Of a stretch of DNA of 64,000 nucleotides, positions 2,976 through 18,768 are shown in pieces. The position numbers were made by a program, and so were the translations under genes. The stretch's first letter is position 1; every line of letters starts with the position of its first letter. This DNA is from Bifidobacterium pseudocatenulatum DSM 20438 = JCM 1200 = LMG 10505. GTDB taxonomy: Bacteria > Actinomycetota > Actinomycetes > Actinomycetales > Bifidobacteriaceae. The stretch spans positions 124,001 to 188,000 of the forward strand of contig NZ_AP012330.1 of the NCBI RefSeq assembly GCF_001025215.1. Reading direction: 5' to 3'. The notes beneath the pieces are model-generated. The model saw only the letters and a list, made by a program, of their open reading frames with translations, made no database searches and had not been told where the DNA came from.

Positions 2976-4037
2976 TCAGAAGAAGCGGCCGGGAAAACCG
3001 GCGCTGATGGTGGCGTGACGGTCGGCGTCCAACGTGGCGCAATCGAAGGCAAAAGTGTTGCTCAGCTCGTTCGGATCGGCAACGAACAGCGCCGTAGCCA
3101 AACCGTCTGCCACCGCAGTCGGATAGTCGACGACCAACGTGGATTGCACAGTAATCCACGTGGCCTCCATCTGCTGCGCGGGCAGGCCGTCGACGGCGTT
3201 GAGCAGATGATGAATAGCCAGATGTGTCCGTTCGTCAACCGCCACCTCCCAATGGCGGCGACTGGGCGCGCTCGCGCAAAACGCGCCATCGCAAATCTCT
3301 GCCACACCCACCGCACGGGACGAATCGTCCGGATCCTCAAGCGCCACACGAATCGGGCTGGACGTGTGTACTAGCAGGTCGCCTCCAGCATCAATCACAA
3401 ATTCCGGGAAGGTGTTCTCTCGATTGAAATCTGTTGCCCCAGCAGTGTGCGCCGAATCCTTCCGCATGGCGTGCTGTGGGTGCGGTTCACGAGACACGCA
3501 TGACGGTTCCAAGCCACCCAACAAGCCACCCAACAAATCAACCAGATAGCCTTTGCCGCACGCGCCGAAATCCAAATGAACCGAGCCATGCGTGACCAAC
3601 GTCGTACTATCTGAACGTACTACGTCGTGCCCCCATACAGGGCGTCCGCGCAAAGCGCCCAAGCGCTCGGCGGCGTCGGCTTCGACGGTGAAGCTCAGCG
3701 TGGGATTGTAACCGAGACGAATCAGATCCTCACCCACGCACGGGTCGATCGCGCCGCGTGTGACGTCGTGTAGTGCGTCGTACAAATCAAACAGTGGGCC
3801 GGCCCAATTGGGAAAATCGAAATGCCCGCCATGCTCCGCGTTTCCGATGCGCGTAACCAGCGAATCGGCGCGGAATCGCGAAAGCACATGCTCGTATCCG
3901 TCGATGAGTCGTTCCATTTTGGCACGCAGGCCCGTGGAAACCGGGCGGGCGGTCGAAACCAGCAAACCGGTGCCGAGCGCCTTGGGAAACGCGGTGGTGT
4001 AGGGCATGCGCTGCACGAGCGAAACGGAAGCATCCAT
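2976..4037 (-). CDS. apbE: FAD:protein FMN transferase (ApbE family)
   Basis: This 353-residue protein attaches FMN from FAD to Thr/Ser of target proteins outside or at the membrane. Family marks are the N-terminal ALGTG stretch, DFGACGKGYLVDLL near residues 153-166 (the Gly-Lys-Gly of the active site) and VIDAGGDLLVH near 215-225. An upstream TTG at 4142 is possible, but the ATG at 4037 sits just before the conserved ApbE N-terminus and has an AGGA close upstream, so it is preferred. No lipobox or signal peptide was seen. The gene is divergent from the iron-uptake operon, which ends with an FMN-binding lipoprotein carrying a flavinylation motif; that protein is the obvious client. An insertion of about 40 residues (PSCVSREPHPQH...) precedes the C-terminal part. 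Confidence 0.9.
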   Translation of the reverse strand: MDASVSLVQRMPYTTAFPKALGTGLLVSTARPVSTGLRAKMERLIDGYEHVLSRFRADSLVTRIGNAEHGGHFDFPNWAGPLFDLYDALHDVTRGAIDPCVGEDLIRLGYNPTLSFTVEADAAERLGALRGRPVWGHDVVRSDSTTLVTHGSVHLDFGACGKGYLVDLLGGLLGGLEPSCVSREPHPQHAMRKDSAHTAGATDFNRENTFPEFVIDAGGDLLVHTSSPIRVALEDPDDSSRAVGVAEICDGAFCASAPSRRHWEVAVDERTHLAIHHLLNAVDGLPAQQMEATWITVQSTLVVDYPTAVADGLATALFVADPNELSNTFAFDCATLDADRHATISAGFPGRFF

Positions 4038-4201
4038 AATCCTGATGCTAGCGCGTTCGTTCGTTGAGAGTGAGGCCTTATGTGCCCGTTTTGTCGATGC
4101 TGGTGCTTGGCTGCGGAACGTCCGGCGCGTCGAATTCAACAAGCATGCTGCGAGTGTGCCACTATGTGAGATGACACGCCGAAGATGGTAAAAACAGGAA
4201 T

Positions 4202-4215
4202 GGCGGAATTCCGCC
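4202..4215. promoter_or_regulatory. 14-bp palindrome in the apbE / iron-permease divergent promoter
   Basis: GGCGGAATTCCGCC is a perfect palindrome in the 306-bp divergent intergenic region, followed by an AT-rich tract that probably holds the permease promoter. It could bind a dimeric regulator. It does not resemble a DtxR/IdeR box, and no regulator is assigned. Confidence 0.25.
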
Positions 4216-4343
4216 GATTCTCCATACTCGATACATCAGAACAAATTAAAAATCAAGACTGTTCTTTAAAAAACTTTCGTTTTATCTTGGCTTTCGGTGC
4301 GCACGTCGCACACTGAAAAGTTTTGAGAAGGAAGGTTTGGAAC

Positions 4344-6140
4344 ATGTCATCTCGCGTTGCGCAGCGCTACGCAACCGGTTCCTATGATCCGTGCGATCCA
4401 CGAGTCTCGGCTTCCGGCCGTCTCGTCACGCTCGTCGCCGCGCTGATGATTGCGCTCGCCACGCTTTTCGCGACTACCGCGGTTCCGCAGTCGGCAATCG
4501 CCGCCGATGACGGTCAAACGAATTTTGATTCCTGGACTGCCGCCGCGAAGAATATCGAAGACCAGCTTGCAACCGCCGAAAAAGACTATAATGACGGCAA
4601 TTACGGTCAGGCTGGCACCGATTTCCAGACCGCGCATTGGATCGGTTACGACGCATCCAACTTCTCGAAAGTCGTCAACGACACCATCAGCGCCGACAAG
4701 CAGAAGGAACTGCTACAGCAATTCACCGATCTTGAAGGGCTTGCCTACCAGCAGGACCAAGGCGACGCCATCGCAACCAAAATCGACGCGCTGACCGCCG
4801 AAATCAACGCAACCGCGCAAACGCTCGATGCGAACGCAGACCTCGCCAATCCTAAGGAATACGCGAAGCAGCGTGCCGCACAAACCGCGGAAGAGCGCAA
4901 GAAGCTTGACGCGGCCAAGAAGAATTCGTCCAAAGGCAAAGGCGACCGCACGTGGAGTGAGGTTGCCAACGAAATGACCGTTATTCTCGACCAGGCATAC
5001 GAGGCTGCCGCTGCTGGCAAGGGGGACGAAGGCGCCACGCTGGTCAACAACGCCTACTACCAGTACTACGAGAAGCTCGGCTTCGAAAAGAACGTGATGA
5101 ACGCTATTTCCGGCGACCGTGTTTCGCAGGTCGAATACCAGTTCAAGATGACTCGTAAGACCATGCGCGACGGCGGTTCCGACAAGGAAATCAAGCAGCT
5201 CGTCGACGATTTGAAGAGCTGGCTCGTGAAAGATGCGGCCATCCTCGACAGTGGTGCGTCCGGCAATGTCAACGGCTTCACCAAGCTCGTTACCAGTTCT
5301 GCCGGTCAGGCGTTCCTCATTCTGATCCGTGAAGGCCTCGAAGCGCTGCTGGTGGTGGCCGCAGTAATCGCCTATCTGGTGAAGTCCGGCAACAAGCGTT
5401 TCGCCAAGTGGATCTACCTTGGTGTGGTCGCAGGTCTGGCCGGCTCCGGTTTGGTTGCCGTGCTCTTCACGTTCCTGTTCGGCGGTTCCGGCCCGATTCA
5501 GGAGATTTCCGAAGGCGTGTGCGCGCTTATCGCCACCCTCATGCTGCTGTGGACCAGCAATTGGATGCTCAACAAGAGCTCCGTGGAAGCGTGGAACAAC
5601 TACATCAGGAACAAGACCGAAGCTGTTGTTGCCGGCGCGCAAAGCAAGGTCGAATCCGGTCAGGGCCTGGGCTTGGGCATGGTCACCTCGCTTGCCATGT
5701 TGAGCTTCCTTGCCGTGTTCCGTGAGGGTGCCGAAACGGTGATCTTCTACGAATCCATCTACTCCATGAGCCAGGATGCGCACGGCATGTGGGTTGGCGG
5801 TCTGACCGCCGCCGCGGTGCTGATCGTCATCTTCCTGATCTTGCGATTCACTTCGGTGAAGATTCCGATCGGCCCGTTCTTCCTCGTAACTTCGATTTTG
5901 ATGGCTGCATTGGTTGTCATTTTCGCGGGTGGCGGCATCCATGCGCTCATCGAGGGTGATCTTATTGAAGGTACCTACTTGAGCATTGTGCCAACTAACG
6001 ATTGGATCGGCTTGTATCCGTACGTCGAAACTATTGCGGCACAGGTGATTGCTGCGATCGCGGTGGTTGCGCTGTTCGTAGTCGGCTTCATCAAGAAACA
6101 CAGGATGAAGTTGGCCGCACAAGCGGAACAGGCTAAGTAA
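4344..6140 (+). CDS. FTR1-family iron permease with extracytoplasmic N-terminal domain
   Basis: This 598-residue protein has a signal-like helix (about residues 25-50), a roughly 260-residue extracytoplasmic alpha-helical region rich in Ala/Lys/Asp, and an FTR1 permease domain of about seven membrane spans. The two diagnostic REXXE-type motifs are REGLE near residue 328 and REGAE near 459; these bind iron in the family. The ATG at 4344 has a strong GAAGGAAGG site; an upstream TTG at 4323 lacks one. Neighbours downstream are P19, DUF2318, two FtsX-type permeases, an ATPase and an FMN-binding lipoprotein, the same order as the FTR1-P19 iron cluster of Campylobacter. A similar Bifidobacterium breve locus has been named bfe/sif; the gene-by-gene match is from memory and not checked. 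Confidence 0.92.
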   Translation: MSSRVAQRYATGSYDPCDPRVSASGRLVTLVAALMIALATLFATTAVPQSAIAADDGQTNFDSWTAAAKNIEDQLATAEKDYNDGNYGQAGTDFQTAHWIGYDASNFSKVVNDTISADKQKELLQQFTDLEGLAYQQDQGDAIATKIDALTAEINATAQTLDANADLANPKEYAKQRAAQTAEERKKLDAAKKNSSKGKGDRTWSEVANEMTVILDQAYEAAAAGKGDEGATLVNNAYYQYYEKLGFEKNVMNAISGDRVSQVEYQFKMTRKTMRDGGSDKEIKQLVDDLKSWLVKDAAILDSGASGNVNGFTKLVTSSAGQAFLILIREGLEALLVVAAVIAYLVKSGNKRFAKWIYLGVVAGLAGSGLVAVLFTFLFGGSGPIQEISEGVCALIATLMLLWTSNWMLNKSSVEAWNNYIRNKTEAVVAGAQSKVESGQGLGLGMVTSLAMLSFLAVFREGAETVIFYESIYSMSQDAHGMWVGGLTAAAVLIVIFLILRFTSVKIPIGPFFLVTSILMAALVVIFAGGGIHALIEGDLIEGTYLSIVPTNDWIGLYPYVETIAAQVIAAIAVVALFVVGFIKKHRMKLAAQAEQAK

Positions 6141-6229
6141 GCGCCAATCAATAATCACAAGTAAATATTTAGAGATTTCCATAAGTTCCCAACGTTCCTC
6201 GAGGAACCAAAGAAAAGGAAGAGAACACA

Positions 6230-6892
6230 ATGAAGAATAAGAAGATCGCCGCCCTGCTCGGCGTCCTGCTGGCCGGCTCCATGGCTTTCTCCCTGTCCGC
6301 ATGCGGCAACTCCAACGATTCCGCATCCGACGCCAAGTCCGACACCTCCACTTCGAACGCCACCGACAGCTCCAGCGATTCCAGCGCTGACGACAGCTCC
6401 AATGCCGGCTTCGAAGAGATCCAGGTCGACGAGAAGCACTCCGATCAGGATGTTGACGCTCTGACCGTCAACGCCGTGTACTTCCAGCCGATCGATATGG
6501 AACCGTCCGGCATGGGCCTGAAGGCTGCCGACGCTTCCTTCCACTTGGAAGCCGACATTCACGCCAACGAGAAGGGCACTAAGCTCGGCTACGGCAAGGG
6601 CGACTTCGTGCCGGATCTGACCGTGAACTACGAGATCATCAACAACGCGAACAACGAGACCGTTGATTCTGGTACCTTCATGCAGATGAACGCTTCCGAT
6701 GGCCCGCACTACGGCGCCAACATCAAGCTCGACGAAGCTGGCTCCTACAAGCTCGTGCTGAAGATCGAATCCCCGGAGAAGAAGGGTTGGATGCTCCACG
6801 TTGATCCGGAAACCGGCGTTGAGGGCCGCTTCTGGACCGAGCCGCTCGAGGTCACTTTCCCGGAGTGGAACTACACCCCGCAGGAGTGGTGA
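6230..6892 (+). CDS. P19/Tp34-family iron-transport lipoprotein
   Basis: This 220-residue lipoprotein has a lysine-start signal peptide and a lipobox LSAC with the lipidated Cys at residue 25. A Ser/Asp/Ala-rich linker (about 26-62) leads to a P19-type metal-binding domain. The domain shows MEPSGMGL, an ADIHAN segment with a His, and FMQMNASDGPHYGANI, which supplies conserved Met and His ligands. P19 proteins bind Cu/Fe at the outer face and work with FTR1 permeases. The start has an AAGGAAGAG site. The gene lies 90 bp after the permease and is followed by two strong hairpins, so it may be transcribed more abundantly than the membrane genes further on. Confidence 0.9.
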   Translation: MKNKKIAALLGVLLAGSMAFSLSACGNSNDSASDAKSDTSTSNATDSSSDSSADDSSNAGFEEIQVDEKHSDQDVDALTVNAVYFQPIDMEPSGMGLKAADASFHLEADIHANEKGTKLGYGKGDFVPDLTVNYEIINNANNETVDSGTFMQMNASDGPHYGANIKLDEAGSYKLVLKIESPEKKGWMLHVDPETGVEGRFWTEPLEVTFPEWNYTPQEW

Positions 6893-6975
6893 TCTGGAAC
6901 GTGAATTCCGGCACATGCCAAGCGAAACGGTTTGGATGTAAGCCTGAATTCATGTTGGGATTCAACTCGTGATCA

Positions 6976-7111
6976 ACGCCGTTCCCGTATCGCGAAACGT
7001 ATGCAAGTAGCGCGAATATGGGTACGGCGTTCGCGGTTGCTTGGATAGTCGTTCGACGTACTTAAGGCCGTCTGGCCGAGTCTACGGGCGAACAACCATC
7101 CAGGCAACCGC
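6976..7111 (+). terminator. Two consecutive stem-loops between P19 gene and DUF2318 gene
   Basis: Within the 345-bp gap, a first hairpin pairs AACGCCGT (6976) with ACGGCGTT (ending 7031). A second pairs GCGGTTGCTTGGAT (7033-7046) with ATCCAGGCAACCGC (7098-7111) and is followed by a T-rich stretch. The second looks like a partial terminator or RNA-processing site that would lower expression of the downstream membrane genes relative to the lipoprotein. No gene is seen in the gap. Confidence 0.5.
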
Positions 7112-7237
7112 TTTCTTGCGTTTTAGGGGATGCGCTTTTGGGAGATAACGCGCTTTTTTGGGAATCTTGGTAAGGGGGTTCCTTTTGCGCGCTGAATTCA
7201 CTAGGCTTTGACAGGGATATACGACGAAAGGTGTGAG

Positions 7238-8509
7238 ATGCTGACGCAGTACGTCACGGTGTTGCAGGGAACGCTGGCACCGGCTTTGCTGATTATGGCG
7301 CTGAACGTGATGCTCACGGTCGGTGAGGGTCGTGACAAGCCGTTGAGCGCGTACTGGCGTCTTGCGGGCTTCATTATCGGATTCGCGGGTGCCATTGTGT
7401 TCGCCGCGTTGCGTGCGACCGCGGTGATCAATCAGCGTACGTTCGTCAATTACCCCACGTTGTGGTGTTGTGTGATTTTCGATGTCGCAGTGTTCGTTGT
7501 TGTGCTGTTCGCGCGTCGCATCACTACGAATTGGCATGATCATCGCGCGTTGCTTGATATTGCGAATGCGATTGGCGCTTTTGCGATTGCCGCCACCACC
7601 TTCCGTGCGTTGCCTGATGTAGTTTTGCGTTTGACGATTTTCGTGGAGCCGGGAGATCCGATCTTCACTTCGGATATGCTGCTTCGTGCGCTTGGTTTCG
7701 TATTGGGTGCGGTCACTGCGATTGTTGCGGCGTTGATTTTCCGTACGATGCGTTCCACTGCGATTCGTTGGTCGTTCACTACGGCCGTGCTGCTGCTGAT
7801 TGCGCTGCTGTTTGTTTCGCATTTCACTGATCTTGCGCAGATTCTGCAGTCCAAGCGCATCGTTCATTTCCCTACGGAAGCGTTCCTGGCGTTGGTATGG
7901 TGCATTAATCATCAGCGTCATATGGTCATTGCCATGGTGTTGGTGTTCATTATTCCGGTGGCCGCCAGCATTGTGATGGGCTTCAAAATCAAGCCGGAAG
8001 GCGCCAATGAGGCCATTGTGCGATCGCATATCGCGTTCCGTCGTCGTGCGAAGGCGGCCGGCGCATGGAGCCTTGTTGCGATGATTGGCATCACGTTCGC
8101 GCTCACATATGGTGTGGCGCAAACGAAGAGGGTTATTACGCTGTCTCCGCCTGAGGATTATTCGCTGAGCGACGGCGTGGCCACCATCAAATTCAGCCAA
8201 ATCAACGACGGTCATCTGCATCGCTTCCAATACAAGGCGAAAGACGGCACAGTGATGCGTTTCATCATCATCAAGAAGAATGGTGGAGCGTACGGTGTCG
8301 GTCTTGATGCTTGTGATAACTGCGGTGACGCGGGCTATTACGAGAAGGATGGCAAGATCATCTGCAAGAAGTGCGATGTCGCCATCAACCTCGCCACTAT
8401 CGGGTTCAAGGGCGGCTGCAATCCTGTGCCGTTCGATTATCAGGTTGAATCCGGCAAAATCGTAATTCAAACTTCAACGCTCGACGCATTGTCGACGCAT
8501 TTCCAGTGA
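7238..8509 (+). CDS. DUF2318 membrane Fe-S protein of iron cluster
   Basis: This 423-residue protein has about eight hydrophobic segments (residues 1-310), then a C-terminal soluble domain with the DUF2318 signature. The signature consists of Cys pairs in DACDNCGDAGYYEKDG and IICKKCDVAIN, followed by a further Cys in GFKGGCNPVP. Such proteins accompany P19/FTR1 systems and probably bind a metal or Fe-S centre outside the membrane, but the reaction is not established. The start is placed at the ATG with GAAAGGTG upstream rather than the TTG at 7208. It is followed at 16 bp by the first permease gene. Confidence 0.85.
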   Translation: MLTQYVTVLQGTLAPALLIMALNVMLTVGEGRDKPLSAYWRLAGFIIGFAGAIVFAALRATAVINQRTFVNYPTLWCCVIFDVAVFVVVLFARRITTNWHDHRALLDIANAIGAFAIAATTFRALPDVVLRLTIFVEPGDPIFTSDMLLRALGFVLGAVTAIVAALIFRTMRSTAIRWSFTTAVLLLIALLFVSHFTDLAQILQSKRIVHFPTEAFLALVWCINHQRHMVIAMVLVFIIPVAASIVMGFKIKPEGANEAIVRSHIAFRRRAKAAGAWSLVAMIGITFALTYGVAQTKRVITLSPPEDYSLSDGVATIKFSQINDGHLHRFQYKAKDGTVMRFIIIKKNGGAYGVGLDACDNCGDAGYYEKDGKIICKKCDVAINLATIGFKGGCNPVPFDYQVESGKIVIQTSTLDALSTHFQ

Positions 8510-8525
8510 GCGGAAAGAGGTAGTC

Positions 8526-9890
8526 ATGTTCTTTCTTCGAATGATTTTCCGCTCGTTCAGCAGGCAGTTCAAACGCAGGCTGCTGATCGCGGTCACCGTG
8601 TGCTTGTCGGCCACGGTCAGCGTGGCCATGTTGGGCGTGGTGTTCGACGTTGGAGACAAGCTGAACGCCGAACTGTCGACGTACGGTTCCAACATCATCG
8701 TGCAGCCCAAGGCTGATGCCGTCGTCAACGACCTGTACAACACGGGTGGTGATGCTGACAGCAGCGCTTCCGGCACTTCCGAATCCGATCCGACCACATT
8801 TTTGAAGGAATCGGATGTACCGAAGATCAAAACCATCTTCTGGGCGTTCAATATCACGAATTTTGCCCCCGAACTTAATATCCATGCTGACGTGAACTGC
8901 GCGTCCGAATCGGCGGCATCGGCGGATTCCAGCTCCTGTAAGGCTTCCGGAGTGCCGATTGTGGGCACATGGTTCGCGAAGACCCTGCACATGGATTCCG
9001 GCGAATCCACGGTGGCGGGTATGAACGGCATGCGTTCGTGGTGGAAGCTTGACGGCTCTTGGCCGAAAGATGATAGCGCGCAAGGTCTGATCGGCACCAC
9101 GCTCGCATCCAAGCTCGGCGTGGCCAAGGGAGACACCGTAACCCTCTACAAAACCACCGCCGACGGCAGCCGCAACAAGCAGCAGATCACTATCACTGGC
9201 ATTTACGATTCCGGCGATAGCGACAACAACGCGATGTACATTCCGTCATTCACCGCGCAGGTGCTTGCGAATCTGCCTGATTCTATTGACGAGATCGAAG
9301 TCAAAGCGCTGACCACGCCAGACAATGATTTGGCGCGAAAGGCGTCGAAGAATCCGAACGCGCTCACGCAAGACGAGTGGGAAACATGGTATTGCACCGC
9401 GTACCCTTCGTCCATCGCCTACCAGATCGAAGAGGTTATTTCCGGTTCCGTAGCCAAGCAGGTGCGTCAGGTGGCCGCATTGCAGGGCGATGTGCTGCAG
9501 AAAACGCAGGCGGTGATGGTGCTGATGACCGTGCTTTCGTTGGTTGCGGCCGCTATTGCAGTGGCGAATCTGATGGCCGCCTCGATCGGTGAGCGCGGTT
9601 CCGAATTGGCGTTGCTGAAGGCGATTGGTGCCACCGATGGTGCGGTTTCCCGCCTGATGCTCGCTGAGACGGCTGTGATTTCGTTGGTTGGCGCGATTGT
9701 TGGTGCGCTGTTGGGTTCCTGTGTTGCGCAGATTGTGGGACACGTGGTATTCGGTTCCGGCATTACGATGCGTCCGATGGTGTTTGTGCTGGTGTTTGTG
9801 CTGCTGACGCTTACCGTGCTGATCGCCTCGTTCTCGTCGATCCGTTCGATTCTGGGACTCAAACCCGCGGAGGTGTTGCATGGCCGCTGA
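8526..9890 (+). CDS. FtsX/MacB-type ABC permease 1 of iron cluster
   Basis: This 454-residue protein has one N-terminal membrane helix (about residues 15-40), a large extracytoplasmic MacB-like periplasmic core domain (about 45-300), and three C-terminal helices with the FtsX pattern. ASIGERGSELALLKAIGATDG is the coupling segment between the first two of these. MacB-type complexes perform mechanotransmission rather than classical substrate translocation. Position in the FTR1-P19 cluster implies work on the lipoprotein partners, for example releasing iron from P19 or passing electrons; this is inferred. A GAAAGAGGTAGTC site precedes the ATG. Confidence 0.85.
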   Translation: MFFLRMIFRSFSRQFKRRLLIAVTVCLSATVSVAMLGVVFDVGDKLNAELSTYGSNIIVQPKADAVVNDLYNTGGDADSSASGTSESDPTTFLKESDVPKIKTIFWAFNITNFAPELNIHADVNCASESAASADSSSCKASGVPIVGTWFAKTLHMDSGESTVAGMNGMRSWWKLDGSWPKDDSAQGLIGTTLASKLGVAKGDTVTLYKTTADGSRNKQQITITGIYDSGDSDNNAMYIPSFTAQVLANLPDSIDEIEVKALTTPDNDLARKASKNPNALTQDEWETWYCTAYPSSIAYQIEEVISGSVAKQVRQVAALQGDVLQKTQAVMVLMTVLSLVAAAIAVANLMAASIGERGSELALLKAIGATDGAVSRLMLAETAVISLVGAIVGALLGSCVAQIVGHVVFGSGITMRPMVFVLVFVLLTLTVLIASFSSIRSILGLKPAEVLHGR

Positions 9891-9981
9891 TTTCAACCTG
9901 AGTTCCGTAAACTCGGCCGCGGCTGCGGCCTCGGTCACGAACGGCACACTGTGCTGTTCGTCCGCGGAGGTGTTGCATGGC
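9865..9981 (+). repeat. 20-bp direct repeat spanning the 3' end of permease 1
   Basis: CCGCGGAGGTGTTGCATGGC occurs at 9865-9884 (the last codons of permease 1) and exactly again at 9962-9981, 97 bp later. The second copy creates an in-frame ATG (9977) that could be mistaken for the start of permease 2. It probably arose by a small tandem duplication. Confidence 0.8.
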
Positions 9982-10015
9982 AGGTGAGTTCAAGACAGTC
10001 CGTAAGGGGCATGAG

Positions 10016-11236
10016 ATGACTAATCGCAAGATGTTCTTCACCATGCTGTGGGGCGCGGTGTTCCGCCGTCGTTCGCGAGCCGTTATGGCCGTGATCGCCT
10101 CCATGGTGGGTGCTGCCACGCTGTTCTGCCTTGCTGCAACGTGTATTGCCGTTCCACAGCAGATGAACGAGGAAATGCGCGCGTATGGCGCGAATCTTAT
10201 CGTCACACCGTCCGAATCAACCGAAAAGTCCAACGGCATCGACACCGATACCACCAAAGCGTTGAACCAGATGGTGAAAGGCTCATACAGCGCCCGTTCC
10301 GCCGCCTACCGGTATGAAAGCGTGCGCATAAACTCGGCGCCATACACGCTGGCCGGCATCACGACCAAAGATGTGAAAGCGCTCAACCATCATTGGAATG
10401 TGACTGGCGATTGGCCCAGCGAAGGCAATGTGATGCTCGGCCGTGACGTGGCCGACGCGCTCGGCGTCTCCATCGGTTCGACCGTGACCATCGGCTACCG
10501 TGCATCCGACGATGCGCAGGATTCCGGCGCTCCCGGCCAAACCGAAGCGCAAGCCATGGAAAACGGCCGCGTTTCGTCCGACATTATGGAGAACACCGGC
10601 ACCGAATTCCGTGTCGGAGGCATCGTCGATACGGGCGGCAGCGAAGACGGAATCGTCTACGCAGTCAATGCTGACGTGGCCAAACTGGCCGGTTCCAAAC
10701 GCGGTGCGGACGTGATCGAATATTCCGTCAATGCGGTAGGTAGCGAACTCAACGACGTCGTCAAATCAATCAATGCGAATCCGTCAACCGGCGTGAAAGC
10801 GCAGACCGTCACCAAAATCACCTCATCCGACACCCGCATCATCGCCATGCTGCAAACCCTGTTCTGGATCGTGTCGCTGGTCGTGCTCGTGCTGACGCTG
10901 GTCGGCGTGGGCACCACCATCAGTTCCATCGTGTCTCAGCGACGCAACGAAATCGGCTTGCGCAAAGCGTTGGGTGCATCGTCGCAGGCCATCGGCATCG
11001 AATTCTATGTGGAATCCGCCATCTACGGACTGATTGGCGGCCTGGTCGGCACTATCATCGGCTACTTGCTGGCCCGCGTGCTGTGCGTGTCCGTATTCGA
11101 GCGTGCCATTGGCTTCAACTGGCTGTTGGGCGTCGCTTCGCTGCTGTTGAGCGTGCTCATCGCCGTCATCGCATCCATTCCGCCGGTTCGCCGCGCAACC
11201 CGTATCGACCCCGCCATCGTTTTGAGGGAGGAATAA
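10016..11236 (+). CDS. FtsX/MacB-type ABC permease 2 of iron cluster
   Basis: This 406-residue protein has the same architecture as its neighbour: N-terminal helix, extracytoplasmic domain (about residues 45-270) and three C-terminal helices with the coupling stretch VSQRRNEIGLRKALGASS. The start at 10016 has an AAGGGG site. The in-frame ATG at 9977 lies in a duplicated copy of the preceding gene's end and would add 13 unrelated residues, so it is rejected. The C-terminus matches MacB family proteins. The ATPase gene follows 2 bp after the stop codon, so the two are translationally coupled. Confidence 0.85.
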   Translation: MTNRKMFFTMLWGAVFRRRSRAVMAVIASMVGAATLFCLAATCIAVPQQMNEEMRAYGANLIVTPSESTEKSNGIDTDTTKALNQMVKGSYSARSAAYRYESVRINSAPYTLAGITTKDVKALNHHWNVTGDWPSEGNVMLGRDVADALGVSIGSTVTIGYRASDDAQDSGAPGQTEAQAMENGRVSSDIMENTGTEFRVGGIVDTGGSEDGIVYAVNADVAKLAGSKRGADVIEYSVNAVGSELNDVVKSINANPSTGVKAQTVTKITSSDTRIIAMLQTLFWIVSLVVLVLTLVGVGTTISSIVSQRRNEIGLRKALGASSQAIGIEFYVESAIYGLIGGLVGTIIGYLLARVLCVSVFERAIGFNWLLGVASLLLSVLIAVIASIPPVRRATRIDPAIVLREE

Positions 11237-11238
11237 TC

Positions 11239-12060
11239 ATGAGTTCCGAGAATACGTTGAATATGTTGCTTGAATTGGATCATATTTCCAAGATTTACGG
11301 CGATTTGCGTGCCGTCGACGATTTGACTTTGACCGTTCCGCAAGGTGAATGGCTTGCGATTGTCGGTTCGTCGGGTTCCGGTAAAACCACGCTGATGAAC
11401 ATGATTGGCTGCATGGACACGCCTTCAAAGGGTTCCGTCATGCTGGAAGGCCGCAAGTTGGAGGATTTGAACGCCAAGCAGCTTGCCGACGTGCGTAAGA
11501 ACATGATCGGATTGGTGTTCCAGAAGTTCTATCTGGTACCGCATCTGACGGCTGTGGAAAACGTGATGGTGGCACAGTACTATCATTCCGTAGTCAACGA
11601 GCAGCAGGCGTTGGAAGCGTTGGAACGCGTCGGTTTGAAGGAGCGTGCCCACCATCTGCCCGGCCAGCTTTCCGGTGGCGAACAGCAGCGCGTGTGCATC
11701 GCACGTGCGCTCATCAACTGCCCGAAATTGATTCTTGCGGACGAACCGACCGGCAATTTGGATGAGAAGAACGAGAAAATCGTGCTTGACCTGTTCCGTC
11801 AGCTGCACGAGCAGGGCACTACCATCATCGTCGTGACCCATGATGCGCTCGTCGCATCTTGTGCCCAGCGCGAGATTATGCTCAACCATGGCGTGCTCGT
11901 CGGCGAGAAGTGGAATGATGAGGCCGCACGGAAGGCCTATGAGCAGGCGGGTGGCAAGCCGGCATACACCGGTTCCACTACGGAAGGCGCACAGAATGGC
12001 GAGACGGCCATCAGCTTCGCCGATCCGACCAAAGTCGCGAAAACCGGGGGTGAGGAATAA
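11239..12060 (+). CDS. MacB/LolD-type ABC ATPase of iron cluster
   Basis: This 273-residue ATPase drives the two FtsX-type permeases. Walker A is [10 protein letters not shown], the signature is [15 protein letters not shown], and Walker B is [12 protein letters not shown], the form typical of the MacB/LolD branch; the H-loop is VVTHD. A C-terminal tail of about 40 residues (from roughly 235) is specific to this protein. The start is the ATG at 11239 behind GAGGGAGGAA; the long upstream extension in the same frame overlaps permease 2 and is not real. Confidence 0.93.
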
Positions 12061-12116
12061 GCTGAAATCAGCCGAATAATCCAAGCCATAGCACTGACGA
12101 ATCGTACGGAGCGAAC

Positions 12117-12674
12117 ATGAGCAACGAATCATCGAATGCGATCAAAGTAATCGCACTGTCTGCGGCAAGCCTTGCATTGCTGTCGGCATGCGGCGAACCC
12201 ACGGCGACGCCAATGGACGATGAATATGCCGGAAATTCCGGCGAAAGCGTGCAATCGCAGGAAGAAAATTCAAAGAACAGCGGTAGTGCCACCGACTCCG
12301 GCGATTCTGCGGATACGGACGTCAAAAACCATGCCGACGATCCGAACAGCACTACATCCGATAAGCAAGACACCGGCAACTACGCCGACGGTACCTACTC
12401 GATCAACGGCCAGTACGGGCCGGTGAGCGAAGACACTATCGACGTGCATGTGACGGTCAAAGACCAGACCGTCACCAATGTGGAGGTTATCGGGCATCCG
12501 TTCACGTCCATCTCCAAAAAGCACCAGAATGCGTTCGCCGAAGCCATCAACGGTGTGGTGGACGGCAAGCCGCTCAAAGACCTCAAGGTAGACAAGGTGG
12601 CCGGTGCCAGCTGGACGTCGGAAGCGTTCAACAAGGCGTTGGACGTGGCCCGTCAGGAAGCGTCAATCCAGTAG
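12117..12674 (+). CDS. FMN-binding-domain lipoprotein, predicted ApbE substrate
   Basis: This 185-residue lipoprotein has lipobox LSAC (Cys25), an acidic Ser/Asp/Asn-rich linker (about 26-90) and a C-terminal FMN_bind domain (about 93-183). Residues 159-167, DKVAGASWT, fit the covalent flavinylation motif Dxx(S/A)GA(S/T)xT, with Thr167 as expected FMN acceptor. An ApbE gene lies at the other end of the locus. In Campylobacter-type FTR1-P19 clusters this place is taken by thioredoxin-like proteins, so here a flavin carrier may provide the redox step, for instance Fe(III) reduction. That is inference. It is the last gene of the operon and is followed by a hairpin. Confidence 0.88.
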   Translation: MSNESSNAIKVIALSAASLALLSACGEPTATPMDDEYAGNSGESVQSQEENSKNSGSATDSGDSADTDVKNHADDPNSTTSDKQDTGNYADGTYSINGQYGPVSEDTIDVHVTVKDQTVTNVEVIGHPFTSISKKHQNAFAEAINGVVDGKPLKDLKVDKVAGASWTSEAFNKALDVARQEASIQ

Positions 12675-12811: not shown

Positions 12812-13465
12812 TCAGACGGCCATAACGGGCCACAGAACGGCCGCCATGTTCTCAGGCCAAGGAATACTCGCATCGCCATGCAACGCCTTACAGGCGAGCA
12901 TGGAGCCGAGTATCGTGCTGAACAGGAATTGCGGATTCAATCCATTACGGAACACTCCGGCCTTCATGCCGCGTTCAACAAACTCAGAAAAACGCTTTTC
13001 CGCAGGAACAAGTACTTGATTGGCAATCGCATTCAACGAAGTGTTATCAGACGAAAGCACCACACCAACGGCCTTCAAACCAAAATCGCTGTCGAAAAAA
13101 CAACCTTGAATGCGTTGCAACATCGTCAGCAAACCGTTTTTCGACAACTCGACATCGCTGAAATCCGGTAATCCCGCAACTTCCAGCTGCACACGGTGCA
13201 ACAGATCATCAGCATTCTTATAGCGGCGATAGATCGTGGTTTTCGCAACGCCAGAACGACGAGCGACCTCTTCGATGGTCACCGCGCCGACGCCATCGGA
13301 AATCACAATCGCAAGCGTGGCCTTCATAATCTTATGATCGGTCTGCTCACGAAGCTGCTCGCGGCGGCTCTGCGCCTTGCGAACAGCCTCATGCACGTCA
13401 CTGACCGCGTCGGAAACCACATCGGAAACGGCTTCGGAAACCGCCTCATGCACTCCGGTAATCAT
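12812..13465 (-). CDS. TetR-family regulator, last gene of Pip operon
   Basis: This 217-residue regulator has an N-terminal HTH with VTIEEVARRSGVAKTTIYRRY at about residues 63-83 and a variable helical ligand domain. Its ATG overlaps the TGA of the upstream Pip gene (ATGA, 13462-13465), which fixes the start. The first 35 residues are an unusual Val/Ser/Asp/Ala/Glu repeat (EAVSEAVSDVVSDAVSDV) encoded by near-tandem 12-nt units. It probably senses a compound acting on the envelope and represses its own operon; a palindrome-rich region before the first Pip gene is a candidate operator. Confidence 0.9.
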   Translation of the reverse strand: MITGVHEAVSEAVSDVVSDAVSDVHEAVRKAQSRREQLREQTDHKIMKATLAIVISDGVGAVTIEEVARRSGVAKTTIYRRYKNADDLLHRVQLEVAGLPDFSDVELSKNGLLTMLQRIQGCFFDSDFGLKAVGVVLSSDNTSLNAIANQVLVPAEKRFSEFVERGMKAGVFRNGLNPQFLFSTILGSMLACKALHGDASIPWPENMAAVLWPVMAV

Positions 13466-15654
13466 GAGATCACCTTGGTGCTTTCCACCTTCGCCACATA
13501 CCACTTGTTGAACTTGACCAGAGGAATACGCAGCACCAGGCCAATCAGCAGCAGCGGAATCAGGAACAACAGTAGCGAGCCGAGCGCATGCCAGTAATCG
13601 TTGTTGTAAATACCGGCAATTGCCGCACGCAACGCCACAATCGAATGCGTGGCCGGCAGGAACGGGCTGATATCGCTGATGATCTTCGGCAGCACGGCCA
13701 GCGGATATGCGCCATTCGAGCCGGAAATCTGCGCCACTAGCACCAGCACGCCAATAGCCTTGCCTATATTGCCGAAACTCGCCACCATCGTGTACGTGAA
13801 GAACGAGAACACCAAGGAGCTCGTCCAGCCAGCCAGCATGAACAGCCATGGATGCACCGCCTGCACATGCAGAAACAGGAGATTGCCGCCCAGCGAGAAC
13901 GTGCTCTGCAGCAGCGCGATCACACCGAACACGCCATAATGGCCGAGGAACAGCTGATGCGGCTTCGGATTGTCAAGACCCTCACGGTTCTTGCGTGAAA
14001 CGCCGGGTTTCAGCGTTACAGCCATAAGCAGCGAACCTACGAATAGTGGAAGAATCGTGTAGAACGGCGCCAACTGCGAGCCGAAATTCTTAACAGGGAA
14101 CACAGCTGTGCGCTTCACCTGGACGGGGGCCGCGAGAGCCGCCGCCAGTGAATCGGTGTTATTGCCGAGCACTTCCTTGACGGTGTCCATATTGCCGCTG
14201 TTCAGTGCGTCGGAAAGCGTGCCATTGAACGAAGACAGCGCGGTGCCCGCCTTGGTGAGGCTTTCGGCGGTGGAATCAAGCACCGTGCGAATATTGGTCA
14301 GCTGCTTGTCTGCCGACTTCGTGGTGCTGTTGAGATCTCCCAACGCGCCCTTCAGATCGGCGGCCGTGCTGCTCAATGCGGTGACCGTGTTGCTGATCGA
14401 ATCGGAAATATCGTTGAGCTGCGGCTTGAGCTGGCTGTCGAAATCGGTTTTGATGCCGTCGATGGAGGCCTTCGCCTGCTGGGCGAGCTGGTTCACGCGC
14501 TCGCGGTCGGCTGTGGTGTCGCTCACTTTCGTGTCGATATTGTCGGCGCTGGTGTTGAGTGAGTTCGCTAGATCGTTGAGTTGCGTAATGGTCGCGCCCA
14601 CGTTGGTTTTGAGATGATCGATGGCGATTTTCGCGACTTCCGGCATCAGATTGTTGTTGCTGAGCTCGTCGAGGGCGTCGTAGATGTTCTGGTAGCTTTG
14701 CGCCTGCTTGGTTACGTTTGCGGCCTGATTGCGCAGGGCAGTGGCCGTATTGCCGGCTTGGGTGCCCGCATTGTTGAATACGCTGTCAATATCGGTGGAG
14801 ACCGCGCCGAAGCTGTTCGCCGAGCTGTTCAACGCGGTGCTGAGAGCGTTCGTGCTGGTTTTGACGGCTCCGGTCAGATCGTTGATGCTGTTTTTCGACT
14901 GTTTGAGCTCGTTGCCGGCGTTCTTCGCGCTGTCGCTCACGTTGGAAAGCAGGCTGTTGGAACTGTCGAGCAGGTTCTGTGCGCTCAATGTCAGTGAGCT
15001 GAACGTGGTCAACGCGGATGACGTGTCGGTGAGCGTGTTCGCGAAATTGCCCATGTTGTTGCTGAAGTTGGTGAGCGTGGCCTGCGATTCCGGTTTGTCA
15101 AGCTCGTCGGCCAGCTGCGAGGTGATGCTGAGCGCGGTGCTCGTCAACGTTTCGGAGAACATTTCGTTGATCTGCGCTGCTACGGTGTCGGCTCCTTGGC
15201 CGGTGATCTTTGGGGCGAGTGCGTTCTTCTTCTCGTTGTTGTAGTAGGTGAGCGTGGCATGGTCGCCGTCTGCGGTGAAGAACGTCATCATGCGGGTGCT
15301 GAAATCCTTCGGAATCACCACTGCCGCATAGTATTTGCCGGATTTGGTGCCGTCGATGGCCTCTTTTTTGGTGGTGAAGGTCCAGTCCATCTGGTCGTTG
15401 GCGCGCAAGGTGTTGACCACTTGGTCGCCGATGCTGATCTTTACTGGAATGAGGTCGGACTTGTAGCCTTCATCGTCGTTGGCGACGGCGAATTTCAGAT
15501 TGCCGGTATTGGCGAACGGATTCCAGCTTGCGCTGATGTTGAACCAAGAGAACAGACCCGGAATCACCACCAGTCCGGTAACGATGATGATGGAGACGAT
15601 GTTGCTGGTCAGGCGTCGAACGTCGCCGACGAACAGTTTCCAGATGTTTTTCAT
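13462..15654 (-). CDS. YhgE/Pip domain membrane protein 2
   Basis: This 730-residue protein has an N-terminal membrane helix, a conserved Pip head (VIPGLFSWFNISASWNPFAN, then KFAVANDDEGY), a long extracellular Ser/Thr/Asn-rich coiled region (about residues 170-500) and five or six C-terminal membrane helices of the ABC-2 type. Relatives include the phage-receptor protein YueB/Pip and type VII-like or RND-like export partners; the exact role here is unknown. It is coupled at both ends by 4-bp ATGA overlaps with the first Pip gene and the TetR gene, so all three are co-translated. Confidence 0.9.
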   Translation of the reverse strand: MKNIWKLFVGDVRRLTSNIVSIIIVTGLVVIPGLFSWFNISASWNPFANTGNLKFAVANDDEGYKSDLIPVKISIGDQVVNTLRANDQMDWTFTTKKEAIDGTKSGKYYAAVVIPKDFSTRMMTFFTADGDHATLTYYNNEKKNALAPKITGQGADTVAAQINEMFSETLTSTALSITSQLADELDKPESQATLTNFSNNMGNFANTLTDTSSALTTFSSLTLSAQNLLDSSNSLLSNVSDSAKNAGNELKQSKNSINDLTGAVKTSTNALSTALNSSANSFGAVSTDIDSVFNNAGTQAGNTATALRNQAANVTKQAQSYQNIYDALDELSNNNLMPEVAKIAIDHLKTNVGATITQLNDLANSLNTSADNIDTKVSDTTADRERVNQLAQQAKASIDGIKTDFDSQLKPQLNDISDSISNTVTALSSTAADLKGALGDLNSTTKSADKQLTNIRTVLDSTAESLTKAGTALSSFNGTLSDALNSGNMDTVKEVLGNNTDSLAAALAAPVQVKRTAVFPVKNFGSQLAPFYTILPLFVGSLLMAVTLKPGVSRKNREGLDNPKPHQLFLGHYGVFGVIALLQSTFSLGGNLLFLHVQAVHPWLFMLAGWTSSLVFSFFTYTMVASFGNIGKAIGVLVLVAQISGSNGAYPLAVLPKIISDISPFLPATHSIVALRAAIAGIYNNDYWHALGSLLLFLIPLLLIGLVLRIPLVKFNKWYVAKVESTKVIS

Positions 15655-18398
15655 GCGTTGCTCCTTTCGCTGTTACCGTTGGGATTGGCGTTGCTCGCTG
15701 TGCCGGTGTTGCCGGCCGCGTTCATGGCCTGTACCAGTGTTGCGACGCCGTCGGCGTCGGCTTGGTTGGTGCCTGCGACGTTGGCGATCGCCTGTTTGGT
15801 TTCGTGTTTTCTTCGTCGTGCCTTGCGCATCAACTTGTCTCGCCTGTTTTGTTGCGCGCGCTTCTTGCGGCGCAGCCTCGCAGCTTGACGTTCCACCAGC
15901 TGTTCGCGAATCGCTTCGTCGCTGAGGCTGCCGAGTTCCACCTGGCGTTGCAGGCTGAAACGCATGTATTCGATGACCATCAGGAATCCGATGATGAGCA
16001 GCACCCAAATGATCCAGGTGGCAAGCACCACGCTCTTCTCGCCGTTGGTGAAGGAGAAGATCAGCACCAGAATCACTGGCACAATGAAACCGGCGATGAG
16101 CGCGCCACGCTTGAGCTTCGGATACAGTTCGGCGAAACGGCTTGCGCGTTCCTCGATCGCCTCACGGTAGCCGCCCTTGTCGGCAAGCACCTGAATGGCT
16201 TGGGACACGTTGTATCCGCGTTCCGGAAGCTGCACTTCCTCGCCGATGATCATGTCGCTTTCCTTGATTTGACGGGCGAACAGGCGGTTGAGATTGACCA
16301 GCAGCGGGCGAATCGCAAGTCCAATGAAGAATGCGGCCACGGCGAACAGCAGCAGCGTGCCAATCGACTTGAGCCAATGCCCATCGTAGAAGCCGGCAAT
16401 CGTCTCTCGGAACGCGTCAATCGAATAACTGAATGGCACGAACGGGTAGACCATGCGGAAGAATTTCGGCATCATCTCAATCGGATACAGGCCGGAAGCG
16501 CCCGGAATCTGCACGATAACCAACGCGACACACAATCCCTTGCCGATATGCATGAACGTGGTCGATAGTGCGAATGTGATGCTCAGATATACCAGCGATG
16601 TGATGGCGCCGGTAAGTACGAACAGCGGTGCGTTCACGGTCTGCACGCCAAGCAGCAGGTCGCCGATGGTGGTGATCGTGCCTTGGGCCGCGCCCATGAT
16701 GCCGAGCAGCATGTAGCGGGCGAAATATTTTTCGGAAGCGGTCAGGTCGAGGCCTTCGAGGCCTTCATCGTCGACTTCCACCTTGAAGATCACCACGAAG
16801 GCGAACGCGCCCACCCACAGGGCCAGATTGGTCATGAGCGGAGCCATGCCGGAACCGTAGGAGTTTATCGGGTACACGTTCTTCGTGTCGATCACGGTGG
16901 GGGACTGCATGAACGAGGCGATTTTCTCCGTGTCGAGGGAACTGCCGCCGGTCAGGTTTTTCAGCATGTCGACGCTGCCGAGTGCCTTCAGGTCGGTGCT
17001 GACGGTGATGAGCTTGTTCTCCACATGTTCAAGCTGCTTGTCGGTGTTCTGCAGGGTGGTGCGGGTGTCGTTCGTTACCTGGTCGAGCTGGTCGAGCACG
17101 GCGGAGGTTTGGGTGACGATGGTGTTTTGGCTGGTCACGGTGCCAGACAGCGTGCCAGCGGTCATGGCGAGCGAGCTCAGGCCTGAGTTGAGCTGGGGGA
17201 GCGCGCCGGAATTCAACGTGTTGCGGGCATCTCCCATGCTTTTCAGTGAATTTTGCGTGCTGGTGTTGAAGTCGGTGGCGAGTTTGGACACGCTGTCGGA
17301 CGTGGATTGCGTGTTCTCGCTCAACGTTTTGAGGTCGTTGAGCGTGCCAGCGGCCGTGTTGTTGGTGTCTTCAAGCTTCTTGATGATGTCTTGGTACTGC
17401 GTGTTGTCGCTGACGTTCTTGAGCTTCTCGATGAGCTGGGCGTTACGGTCGGTCACGCTTTGCATGCTGCTGACGGCCTGCTGTGCGGCTCCGCTCGCGG
17501 AAGAGACGGCTGTGGTCACCTTGTTGATGCTGGTGGTGGTGTCGCTGGTGGCCTGCGAAATCAGGCCGGAACCGTTTTCCAAAGCAGTGTTGGCGTTGGA
17601 AGTGAAGGTATTGAGACCGTTCTGTGTGGTGCCGATGGCGGTGGCGGTGTTCGCCAGGCCCTTGCCGGCGCTTGCTGCGGCCAGTTGCACGTCGTTCATT
17701 GCCTGACGTGCGGATTGCGTTTGTTGCGGCACGTTGGCGAGCTGTGCGTCAAGATCTTCGATGGTGGAGCGGATGAGGTTTACGTTCTTCTGGGTTTTGT
17801 CGAGTTCTGCTGTGGTTTCGTTGACGAAGGAGTTGGTTTTGCCGTTGATGGTGCCGTTCGCGGAGTTCACGGCTTTAGTGAGTACTTCGCTGACAGTGGA
17901 GACGAAGGTGTTGTTGACGGTACGGTCGACGGTGGTCGCGCCTTGATCGGTGATTTTCGGGGAGATTGGGCTCGATTTTTCGTTGACATAGTATTCCAGC
18001 GTCGGCCGGTTCTTGCTGTCGGTCACGACGTTGGCGAGATCCTCGCTGAAATTGGAGGGGATGATGATTGCCGCATAGCAGTCGCCGGACTGTATCGCTT
18101 CCATCGCTTCGGCCTTGCCCATGAATTCCCAGCCAAGCTGGTCGTTGTCTTTCAGCGTGTCTTCGATCTGGTCGCCGAGGTTCATTTTGCCGAGCAGGGC
18201 GTTGTCGGTGCCTTTATCGACGTTGGCCACGGCAACTTTGATGCCTTGGGTGTTGCCGTACGGATTCCAGAATCCGTAGATGTTGAACCATGCGTACAGC
18301 GGCGGAATGATGATTATGCCGATCATGATGACCCAGGCGGCGGGTACGGTGACGAGTCGTTTGAGGTCACGACGCAGAATCTGCAGTACGTTGCGCAT
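15651..18398 (-). CDS. YhgE/Pip domain membrane protein 1
   Basis: This 915-residue paralogue of the following gene has a Pip head (IIIIPPLYAWFNIYGFWNPYGN), a long extracellular helical region with many Ser/Thr/Asn (about residues 165-480), then ABC-2-like membrane helices. It differs in an extra roughly 200-residue C-terminal part with two more helices and a very basic tail (RLRRKKRAQQNRRDK) ending in an Ala/Asn-rich stretch. The start at 18398 is the ATG directly before the conserved head; the longer open frame upstream is non-coding promoter DNA. It heads the pip-pip-tetR operon. Confidence 0.9.
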   Translation of the reverse strand: MRNVLQILRRDLKRLVTVPAAWVIMIGIIIIPPLYAWFNIYGFWNPYGNTQGIKVAVANVDKGTDNALLGKMNLGDQIEDTLKDNDQLGWEFMGKAEAMEAIQSGDCYAAIIIPSNFSEDLANVVTDSKNRPTLEYYVNEKSSPISPKITDQGATTVDRTVNNTFVSTVSEVLTKAVNSANGTINGKTNSFVNETTAELDKTQKNVNLIRSTIEDLDAQLANVPQQTQSARQAMNDVQLAAASAGKGLANTATAIGTTQNGLNTFTSNANTALENGSGLISQATSDTTTSINKVTTAVSSASGAAQQAVSSMQSVTDRNAQLIEKLKNVSDNTQYQDIIKKLEDTNNTAAGTLNDLKTLSENTQSTSDSVSKLATDFNTSTQNSLKSMGDARNTLNSGALPQLNSGLSSLAMTAGTLSGTVTSQNTIVTQTSAVLDQLDQVTNDTRTTLQNTDKQLEHVENKLITVSTDLKALGSVDMLKNLTGGSSLDTEKIASFMQSPTVIDTKNVYPINSYGSGMAPLMTNLALWVGAFAFVVIFKVEVDDEGLEGLDLTASEKYFARYMLLGIMGAAQGTITTIGDLLLGVQTVNAPLFVLTGAITSLVYLSITFALSTTFMHIGKGLCVALVIVQIPGASGLYPIEMMPKFFRMVYPFVPFSYSIDAFRETIAGFYDGHWLKSIGTLLLFAVAAFFIGLAIRPLLVNLNRLFARQIKESDMIIGEEVQLPERGYNVSQAIQVLADKGGYREAIEERASRFAELYPKLKRGALIAGFIVPVILVLIFSFTNGEKSVVLATWIIWVLLIIGFLMVIEYMRFSLQRQVELGSLSDEAIREQLVERQAARLRRKKRAQQNRRDKLMRKARRRKHETKQAIANVAGTNQADADGVATLVQAMNAAGNTGTASNANPNGNSERSNA

Positions 18399-18436
18399 TG
18401 TCTCCCCAGTCCAATGGATGTTCGACCGTGTTCGCG

Positions 18437-18478
18437 CGTAGCGATACGTTATCCGTAGCGCTACGCCTCCCGTATCGT
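18437..18478. promoter_or_regulatory. Candidate TetR operator before the Pip operon
   Basis: CGTAGCGCTACG (18454-18465) is a perfect 12-bp palindrome, flanked by CGATACG (18442) and CGTATCG (18471) that pair with each other across it. Nested dyads directly upstream of an operon encoding its own TetR protein are the usual operator arrangement. Binding by this TetR protein is inferred. The rest of the 370-bp divergent gap to 18769 shows no gene. Confidence 0.45.
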
Positions 18479-18768
18479 AATACCCGTTCTCGGACAAATT
18501 TGGGCACGGACGTAAATGCGCTCCGCCCATGACTGAAATAAACACGACAAACTGCGGCGGAACTGTGAATCTTGCCGTTAATGACCGCACAACTTGCATT
18601 CTGTGCATGCGCAAGTCGAGTCTGTTGTCTGCGATCTTGTGATTACGAGATGGCACGTGACTTGTGCAGACAGCAATCGCAGGTTGTGCTGGTTGCGCAC
18701 AAACAATCCTCTCGTGTAGCGCACTGCGATTGGGTTTTGGTAGCGTTGTACAAGGAAGGACGAATAGT

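Follow-up and report, generated by a model that had tools for sequence, protein, structure and literature searches.

A probable flavin arm in the bifidobacterial bfeUO/sifABCDE iron-uptake cluster and the shared fate of ApbE and SifE

The iron-uptake cluster of the window

The region considered here, called the window, is a stretch of 64,000 nucleotides of Bifidobacterium pseudocatenulatum DSM 20438 (contig NZ_AP012330.1, positions 124,001 to 188,000), and it contains an iron-uptake cluster in which the gene for ApbE, the FAD:protein flavin mononucleotide (FMN) transferase, lies beside genes for an iron permease and for a lipoprotein of the FMN_bind family. The apbE gene (2976..4037, minus strand) encodes 353 amino acids (aa) in an open reading frame (ORF) that is open to 4142, and its product matches PF02424 with E 6.5e-25 (88.6 bits, cut-off 25.6). 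On the plus strand stand bfeU (4344..6140; PF03239, E 9.3e-36), coding for an FTR1-family iron permease with an extracytoplasmic N-terminal part; bfeO (6230..6892; PF10634, E 4.1e-57), for the P19 iron-binding lipoprotein; sifA (7238..8509; PF10080, E 1.4e-32), for a DUF2318/FtrD-like membrane protein with its cysteine domain encoded at 8201-8503; sifB (8526..9890; PF02687, E 2e-13, with the PF12704 MacB core domain), for an FtsX/MacB-type permease; sifC (9977..11236; PF02687, E 5.5e-20), for an FtsX-type permease; sifD (11239..12060; PF00005, E 2.4e-35), for an ATP-binding cassette (ABC) ATPase; and sifE (12117..12674; PF04205, E 1.5e-7), for the FMN_bind lipoprotein, which consists of a lipobox (LLSAC), a long Ser/Asp-rich spacer and the FMN_bind domain. 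Several starts probably lie slightly inside their ORFs, namely the ATG codons at 4037 for ApbE, 4344 for the FTR1 permease, 7238 for the DUF2318 protein and 11239 for the ATPase.

These Pfam matches bear out the eight genes and their order, including the divergent ApbE, that had been proposed from the letters and ORFs of the window (the sequence-only reading), and the fixed core order of FTR1, P19, DUF2318, permease, permease and ATPase is present. The window cluster is the bifidobacterial bfeUO/sifABCDE, and the system itself is not new; in a tree of six core proteins it adjoins the cluster of genome G064. Among the relatives listed for the DUF2318 protein and for the FMN_bind protein, 120 each, every organism named is a Bifidobacterium. 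Both REGxE motifs of the FTR1 permease are kept in all 13 aligned sequences, and BfeU scores 86 bits against the EfeU equivalog model NF041756, under the 255-bit threshold for EfeU of the EfeUOB system, after which bfeUOB is named. A copy of the operator known from the B. breve iron regulon, where it precedes bfeUO, one mismatch away from AAAATCAAGACTGTTGTT, is found on the plus strand at 4249..4266, between apbE and the FTR1 gene, with a chance expectation of 0.03 in the window. Copies with zero to three mismatches occur at nine of ten other cluster loci tested, L086 having a four-mismatch site only, and none was found in short fragments around three apbE genes remote from the cluster (L051, L060 and L062).

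Shared fate of ApbE and SifE

Profile searches of the window's genome returned a single FMN_bind gene, sifE, with no second one, and one ApbE gene above the cut-off, another stretch staying below it at E 0.1; with one gene of each kind, the pairing is cleaner than the sequence-only reading could know. Among 151 Bifidobacteriaceae genomes, searched at E<=0.01, FMN_bind was detected in 106, ApbE in 108 and DUF2318 in 121. The co-occurrence tally, which counts ApbE in 107 genomes with G029 omitted, its ApbE match being below the cut-off, gives FMN_bind and ApbE together in 104, FMN_bind alone in two, ApbE alone in three and neither in 42. DUF2318 lies above the cut-off in 120 genomes. In 102 of them an FMN_bind gene follows on the same strand at a distance of 2.5-7 kb downstream, and every one of these 102 also carries ApbE; among the remaining 18, G027 has ApbE and SifE (found with phmmer) and 17 have neither, which leaves ApbE and SifE together in 103 of the 120 and both absent in 17 (Fisher p 9e-20, a value that ignores kinship). 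All 17 retain the six other cluster genes. On a tree built from these six proteins (41 rows), the FMN loss takes two changes, and a single FMN-less clade is rejected (approximately unbiased (AU) test, p 4e-5). ApbE and SifE have been lost at least twice, in separate clades, which is a sounder statement than the Fisher p value. The closest ApbE match, among the matches listed, lies 3-12 kb upstream in at least 54 of the 102 genomes, 12-49 kb upstream in 25, about 1.9 Mb off in two and on a different contig in 21; the shared fate of ApbE and SifE thus does not depend on the two genes being linked.

Inspection by eye of the 2.5 kb that follow the ATPase in the FMN-less loci (same strand, ORFs of at least 70 aa) revealed neither a thioredoxin nor an FMN_bind ORF, and replacement of SifE by a thioredoxin is rejected for these surroundings of the cluster. 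One FMN-less locus (L020) has a pyruvate-oxidase-like ORF within the region after the ATPase. In the window, the cluster is followed at 12812-18914 by a TetR-like ORF and by two long ORFs on the minus strand that code for membrane proteins, putatively of the Pip/YhgE type; frames similar to these were seen by eye after the ATPase in several FMN-less loci, which would fit a loss of SifE in situ.

The sequence-only reading had named ApbE/FMN_bind pairs independent of the iron genes as counter-evidence to its proposal. Taken literally, such pairs do exist, in at least 25 of the 151 genomes (FMN_bind within 1.5 kb of an ApbE match, among the matches listed); these, however, belong to a separate second operon, and 24 of the 25 genomes also have a DUF2318 gene. 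In the three loci of this second operon that were read by eye (L068, L069 and L070, from G081, G140 and G127), FMN_bind stands with a leaderless ApbE and a ferric-reductase-like membrane protein in an MsrQ-like layout.

Genetic support comes from Bifidobacterium breve UCC2003, in which 28 genes with transposon mutants were scored for growth on dipyridyl at two doses, on ciclopirox, on phenanthroline and without chelator (PMC5449479, Table 3). Only sifA, sifB, sifC, sifD, sifE and apbE combine full growth (+++) without chelator and on ciclopirox with growth of at most + on both dipyridyl doses and on phenanthroline. Genome G039 is B. breve, 14 of the 15 published primers matching exactly in its cluster, and it has one FMN_bind and one ApbE gene, unlinked and far apart; with a single gene of each kind, the published B. 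breve apbE is very probably the ortholog of the cluster ApbE. The authors attributed the apbE mutant to iron-sulphur (Fe-S) repair (PMC5449479), and the corresponding explanation has that interpretation in its favour. In it the role of ApbE lies in Fe-S cluster repair or in thiamine metabolism, an idea put forward for Salmonella and adopted for B. breve in 2017, and the link to SifE is a coincidence. It is nevertheless highly improbable, given that apbE matches the sif profile and the other Fe-S gene, apbC, does not (no growth on ciclopirox and only ++ without chelator; PMC5449479), that ApbE is absent from all 17 importer-keeping genomes without SifE, in two clades, and that SifE is the only FMN_bind protein of the window's genome. 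The reread mutant profile is genetic support, in print but unrecognised there, for ApbE acting through SifE, and together with the co-loss in two clades it upholds the earlier proposal that ApbE serves this lipoprotein. No published link between apbE and SifE was found in the open-access literature, covered by title, abstract start and partial text.

A probable flavin arm and its rivals

The FMN_bind domain of SifE scores 32.4 bits against PF04205, with a curated cut-off of 22, and all 24 relatives examined have the lipobox pattern, 23 of them together with a hydrophobic signal, the last one (L083) having been read in an ORF fused with the ATPase. The nonapeptide DKVAGASWT at residues 159-167, to which the sequence-only reading had pointed, is conserved: D-[KT]-[VLI]-A-G-A-S-W-T occurs in 119 of 120 SifE relatives among the matches listed, P0228 being the sole non-match. 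The acceptor had been placed at Thr167, two residues too far, since it is the final position of D-x-x-[S/T]-G-A-[S/T] that receives FMN (PMC12052999); the expected acceptor is Ser165 (codon 12609-12611), at the end of the motif D159-K-V-A-G-A-S165 (12591..12611, plus strand). Compared with the consensus, the Asp, Gly, Ala and acceptor Ser are present and the fourth position is Ala162. SifE very probably carries covalently attached FMN.

The transferase raises a question of topology. Its stretches DFGAxGKG, AGGD and DxLxTA are invariant in 16 of 16 aligned sequences, and its core (LGTG...) begins a few residues past the first plausible start, in the window and in relatives. By a simple hydrophobicity test, 27 of 28 distinct iron-cluster ApbEs, read from stop to stop and excluding L084 and L088, in which the core pattern was missed, have no hydrophobic segment ahead of the core, the exception (L093) having its hydrophobic stretch inside a 233-residue over-extension. 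In a set of named species that overlaps with the former, 17 of 46 loci could be read (29 were missed by the pattern), and the two hydrophobic cases fall within over-extended upstream parts of 132 and 184 residues. While SifE is exported as a Sec-type lipoprotein, ApbE appears to have no signal peptide that can be recognised, which is a puzzling topology; departure of ApbE by non-classical export would be compatible with the hydrophobicity test. Most ApbEs are apparently secreted, and the leaderless bacterial example acts on a cytosolic target (PMC12052999). No paper pairing a leaderless ApbE with an exported target was found by title and abstract start.

One tentative solution, which we regard as possible rather than probable, is that a cytosolic ApbE loads FMN on the unfolded SifE precursor and that flavinylated SifE then crosses the Sec translocon. 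Loading before export would account for an ApbE without a leader that has an exported lipoprotein as its sole FMN_bind partner, as well as for the leaderless ApbEs of two separate bifidobacterial flavinylation operons (the second read by eye in three loci). A folded target seems unnecessary, as ApbE accepts tags down to seven residues (PMC12052999). Alternatively, SifE might bind FMN loosely or not at all and be an iron- or haem-handling lipoprotein, the leaderless ApbE acting on a cytosolic protein. The missing export signal in 27 of 28 ApbEs, the Ala at motif position 4 and a leaderless Klebsiella ApbE paired with a cytosolic target (PMC12052999) are in keeping with this, yet it is very unlikely, because the window's genome has no other FMN_bind protein, ApbE and SifE are lost jointly, the mutant profiles agree, and a leader is likewise missing from the second bifidobacterial ApbE, whose neighbours are a membrane-anchored FMN_bind protein and one that resembles ferric reductases (three loci read by eye).

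The DUF2318 protein had been taken as the candidate membrane step of the electron path, which is not supported. The DUF2318 signature CxxC-x13-CxxC-x14,15-C (PMC6083913) is present in SifA, with C369, C372, C386, C389 and C404 invariant in 20 of 20 aligned sequences, and these five are the only invariant cysteines, no cysteine column of the membrane part exceeding 64%. The membrane part is instead FTR1-like. FTR1-DUF2318 fusions, recorded by source names in Actinobacteria, Chloroflexi, Acidobacteria, Zixibacteria and KSB1 (L027, L031, P0241, P0248-P0360), have the same two-part layout as SifA; the fusions keep both REGxE motifs (108 of 108 non-redundant sequences, from 120 rows among the matches listed), whereas bifidobacterial SifA has none (0 of 76). 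Profile comparison with hhalign aligned the SifA membrane part with the fusions at 96.0% (E 4.8e-9, 268 columns) and the fusions with FTR1 at 99.9%, while reversed and FtsX control profiles reached at most 1.4%; the match of SifA to the fusions weakens but persists when the stretch beside the DUF2318 domain is trimmed, and it strengthens once a Fusobacterium homologue is added. The AlphaFold2 model of SifA has a mean predicted local distance difference test (pLDDT) score of 91.6. The membrane domain of SifA is therefore likely to be FTR1-derived, with the REGxE glutamates lost, and does not look like an electron conduit. A link between SifA and FTR1 ancestry was not found in open-access literature treating FTR1 with DUF2318, as far as the accessible text goes.

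The interpretation considered probable here is that BfeUO works as the importer, SifABCDE as a helper module, and ApbE and SifE as a dedicated flavin arm. ApbE would attach FMN to Ser165 of SifE and, in cluster-bearing genomes, would chiefly serve SifE, whose flavin at the cell surface would exchange electrons with iron on P19 and on the five-Cys domain of SifA, such that iron would reach FTR1 in a transportable form. SifB, SifC and SifD would form a MacB-like ABC unit, most likely performing conformational work or iron handover and not translocation, and SifA would most likely be a partner of FTR1 origin in which the iron-carrying glutamates are gone. The flavin arm would be an addition to the system, since the six other genes persist without ApbE and SifE in two lineages. 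The gene set, the joint fate of ApbE and SifE, the matching mutant profiles and the iron regulation of the two B. breve operons are computed here or in print; the partner and direction of electron exchange, the work of SifA-D and the donor are what we infer.

Covalent flavins usually lie at low potential, and on these potentials iron reduction by the SifE flavin is somewhat more likely than the reverse. A ferroxidase-like step, in which the SifE flavin takes electrons from iron, since FTR1-type permeases otherwise couple to iron oxidation, is unlikely, as oxidising iron from a low flavin potential would call for a ligand that binds ferric iron strongly and for an electron sink, and neither was found. 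This opposite direction draws on the observation that the sif and apbE mutants are hurt by ferrous chelators only (PMC5449479), in growth tests that are indirect, on the assignment of an Escherichia coli FetM homologue to an oxidase-dependent iron transporter family and on the oxidase-like thioredoxins of the Campylobacter jejuni cluster (both PMC10783030). As for the donor, the window's genome was searched with PF01794, PF03116, PF12801, PF02683, PF03929 and PF14358, which cover ferric reductase/MsrQ, NqrB/RnfD, NapH-type, DsbD, PepSY_TM and DUF4405 proteins, conduits of the extracellular electron transfer (EET) type lying outside the search; five families gave no match at E<=1 and PF01794 gave E 0.86, below the cut-off. 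The same models matched in 4-11 of 14 control genomes, in 3-10 over the cut-off, and diverged members can escape them. The donor may be a diffusible molecule or belong to a kind outside this list. A possible lead toward the electron partner is the gene for a cytochrome bd subunit II of B. breve (Bbr_1644, two insertions), whose mutants are mildly sensitive to dipyridyl and phenanthroline and not to ciclopirox (PMC5449479, Table 3).

Several points weigh against a flavin arm of this kind. Covalent FMN on SifE, like its site at Ser165, is something we infer; position 4 of the motif is Ala and not Ser or Thr in 119 of the 120 relatives, and Ser is the acceptor less favoured by ApbE (PMC12052999). 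No signal peptide can be recognised on ApbE while SifE is exported, and an ApbE match lies 3-12 kb upstream in only 54 of the 102 genomes as a lower bound. FMN_bind occurs without ApbE in G058 and G023 (the latter below the cut-off). Conversely, G010, G112 and, with a match below the cut-off, G029 have ApbE and no FMN_bind, and G140 and G150 have both but no DUF2318 gene. The direct profile comparison of SifA with FTR1 fails (2.6%), which leaves the link via the fusions. The apbE mutant is a single Tn5 insertion as tabulated, is milder on dipyridyl than the sifA-E mutants, and no complementation of it was seen in the accessible text of PMC5449479. Ferrous chelators impair the sif and apbE mutants and the ferric chelator ciclopirox does not (PMC5449479, Table 3), a tolerance that speaks against a plain ferric reductase.

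Comparison with known systems

Clusters of the FTR1-P19-DUF2318-ABC type are required under iron limitation in B. breve (PMC5449479) and C. jejuni (PMC10783030). The C. jejuni fetMP-fetABCDEF cluster resembles the window in its first six genes, their order and a redox protein in slot 7, but there slots 7 and 8 hold thioredoxins and no ApbE was seen in the accessible text (PMC6083913, PMC10783030). Slot 7 has a thioredoxin in most Proteobacteria and an FMN-binding protein in Actinobacteria, Firmicutes, Spirochaetes and Synergistetes, Bifidobacterium kashiwanohense being among the examples (PMC6083913, 2018), and the sequence-only reading was right to see FMN_bind in the thioredoxin position, a finding already published (PMC6083913, 2018; PMC8238504, 2021). 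In the 2021 survey an FMN_bind gene was counted in 260 P19 clusters, most of them from Gram-positive bacteria, and redox chemistry assisting iron uptake was proposed, with the membrane link or donor encoded elsewhere in the genome; as far as its accessible text goes, the survey is without mutants of this cluster and without ApbE topology, and its main text does not name DUF2318 (PMC8238504).

Other arrangements occur as well. An E. coli plasmid (NZ_CP048311.1, L073, 1920-11274) has a TlpA-like protein in slot 7 plus an FMN_bind protein and another redoxin upstream of FTR1, hence two redox types within one iron cluster. Fusobacterium vincentii (L072, 6230-11353) has SifABCDE-like genes, including an FMN_bind-like lipoprotein with SGAT, and no FTR1 or P19 ORF was recognised by eye in 14.5 kb (ORFs of at least 140 aa); the Sif module may be separable from FTR1-P19.

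The cluster, the exchange of thioredoxin for FMN_bind and the flavinylation reading are already in print. What is new is the shared fate of ApbE and SifE, another reading of the apbE mutant, an ApbE without a recognisable leader, the likely descent of SifA from FTR1 and the placing of the acceptor at Ser165. The cluster type is known, and its redox arm is without a settled mechanism in the cited literature, as far as the accessible text goes. A DUF2318 protein that is likely an FTR1 offshoot shifts where the electron path is to be sought, and the findings are a reason to examine where ApbE works in Gram-positive bacteria.

The nearest known system is that of B. breve UCC2003, where bfeUO and sifABCDE form two iron-responsive operons, their Tn5 mutants are chelator-sensitive and sifE was called FMN-binding in 2017 (PMC5449479). 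It shares genes, order, genus and operator motif with the window, and no mention in the accessible text of that study connects apbE with sifE. It differs in that B. breve apbE (Bbr_1825) is unlinked to the cluster, whereas the window's apbE is divergent beside bfeU. The comparison yields a directly testable question, with apbE and sifE mutants of B. breve that behave alike, one enzyme, one substrate and relatives that lost both.

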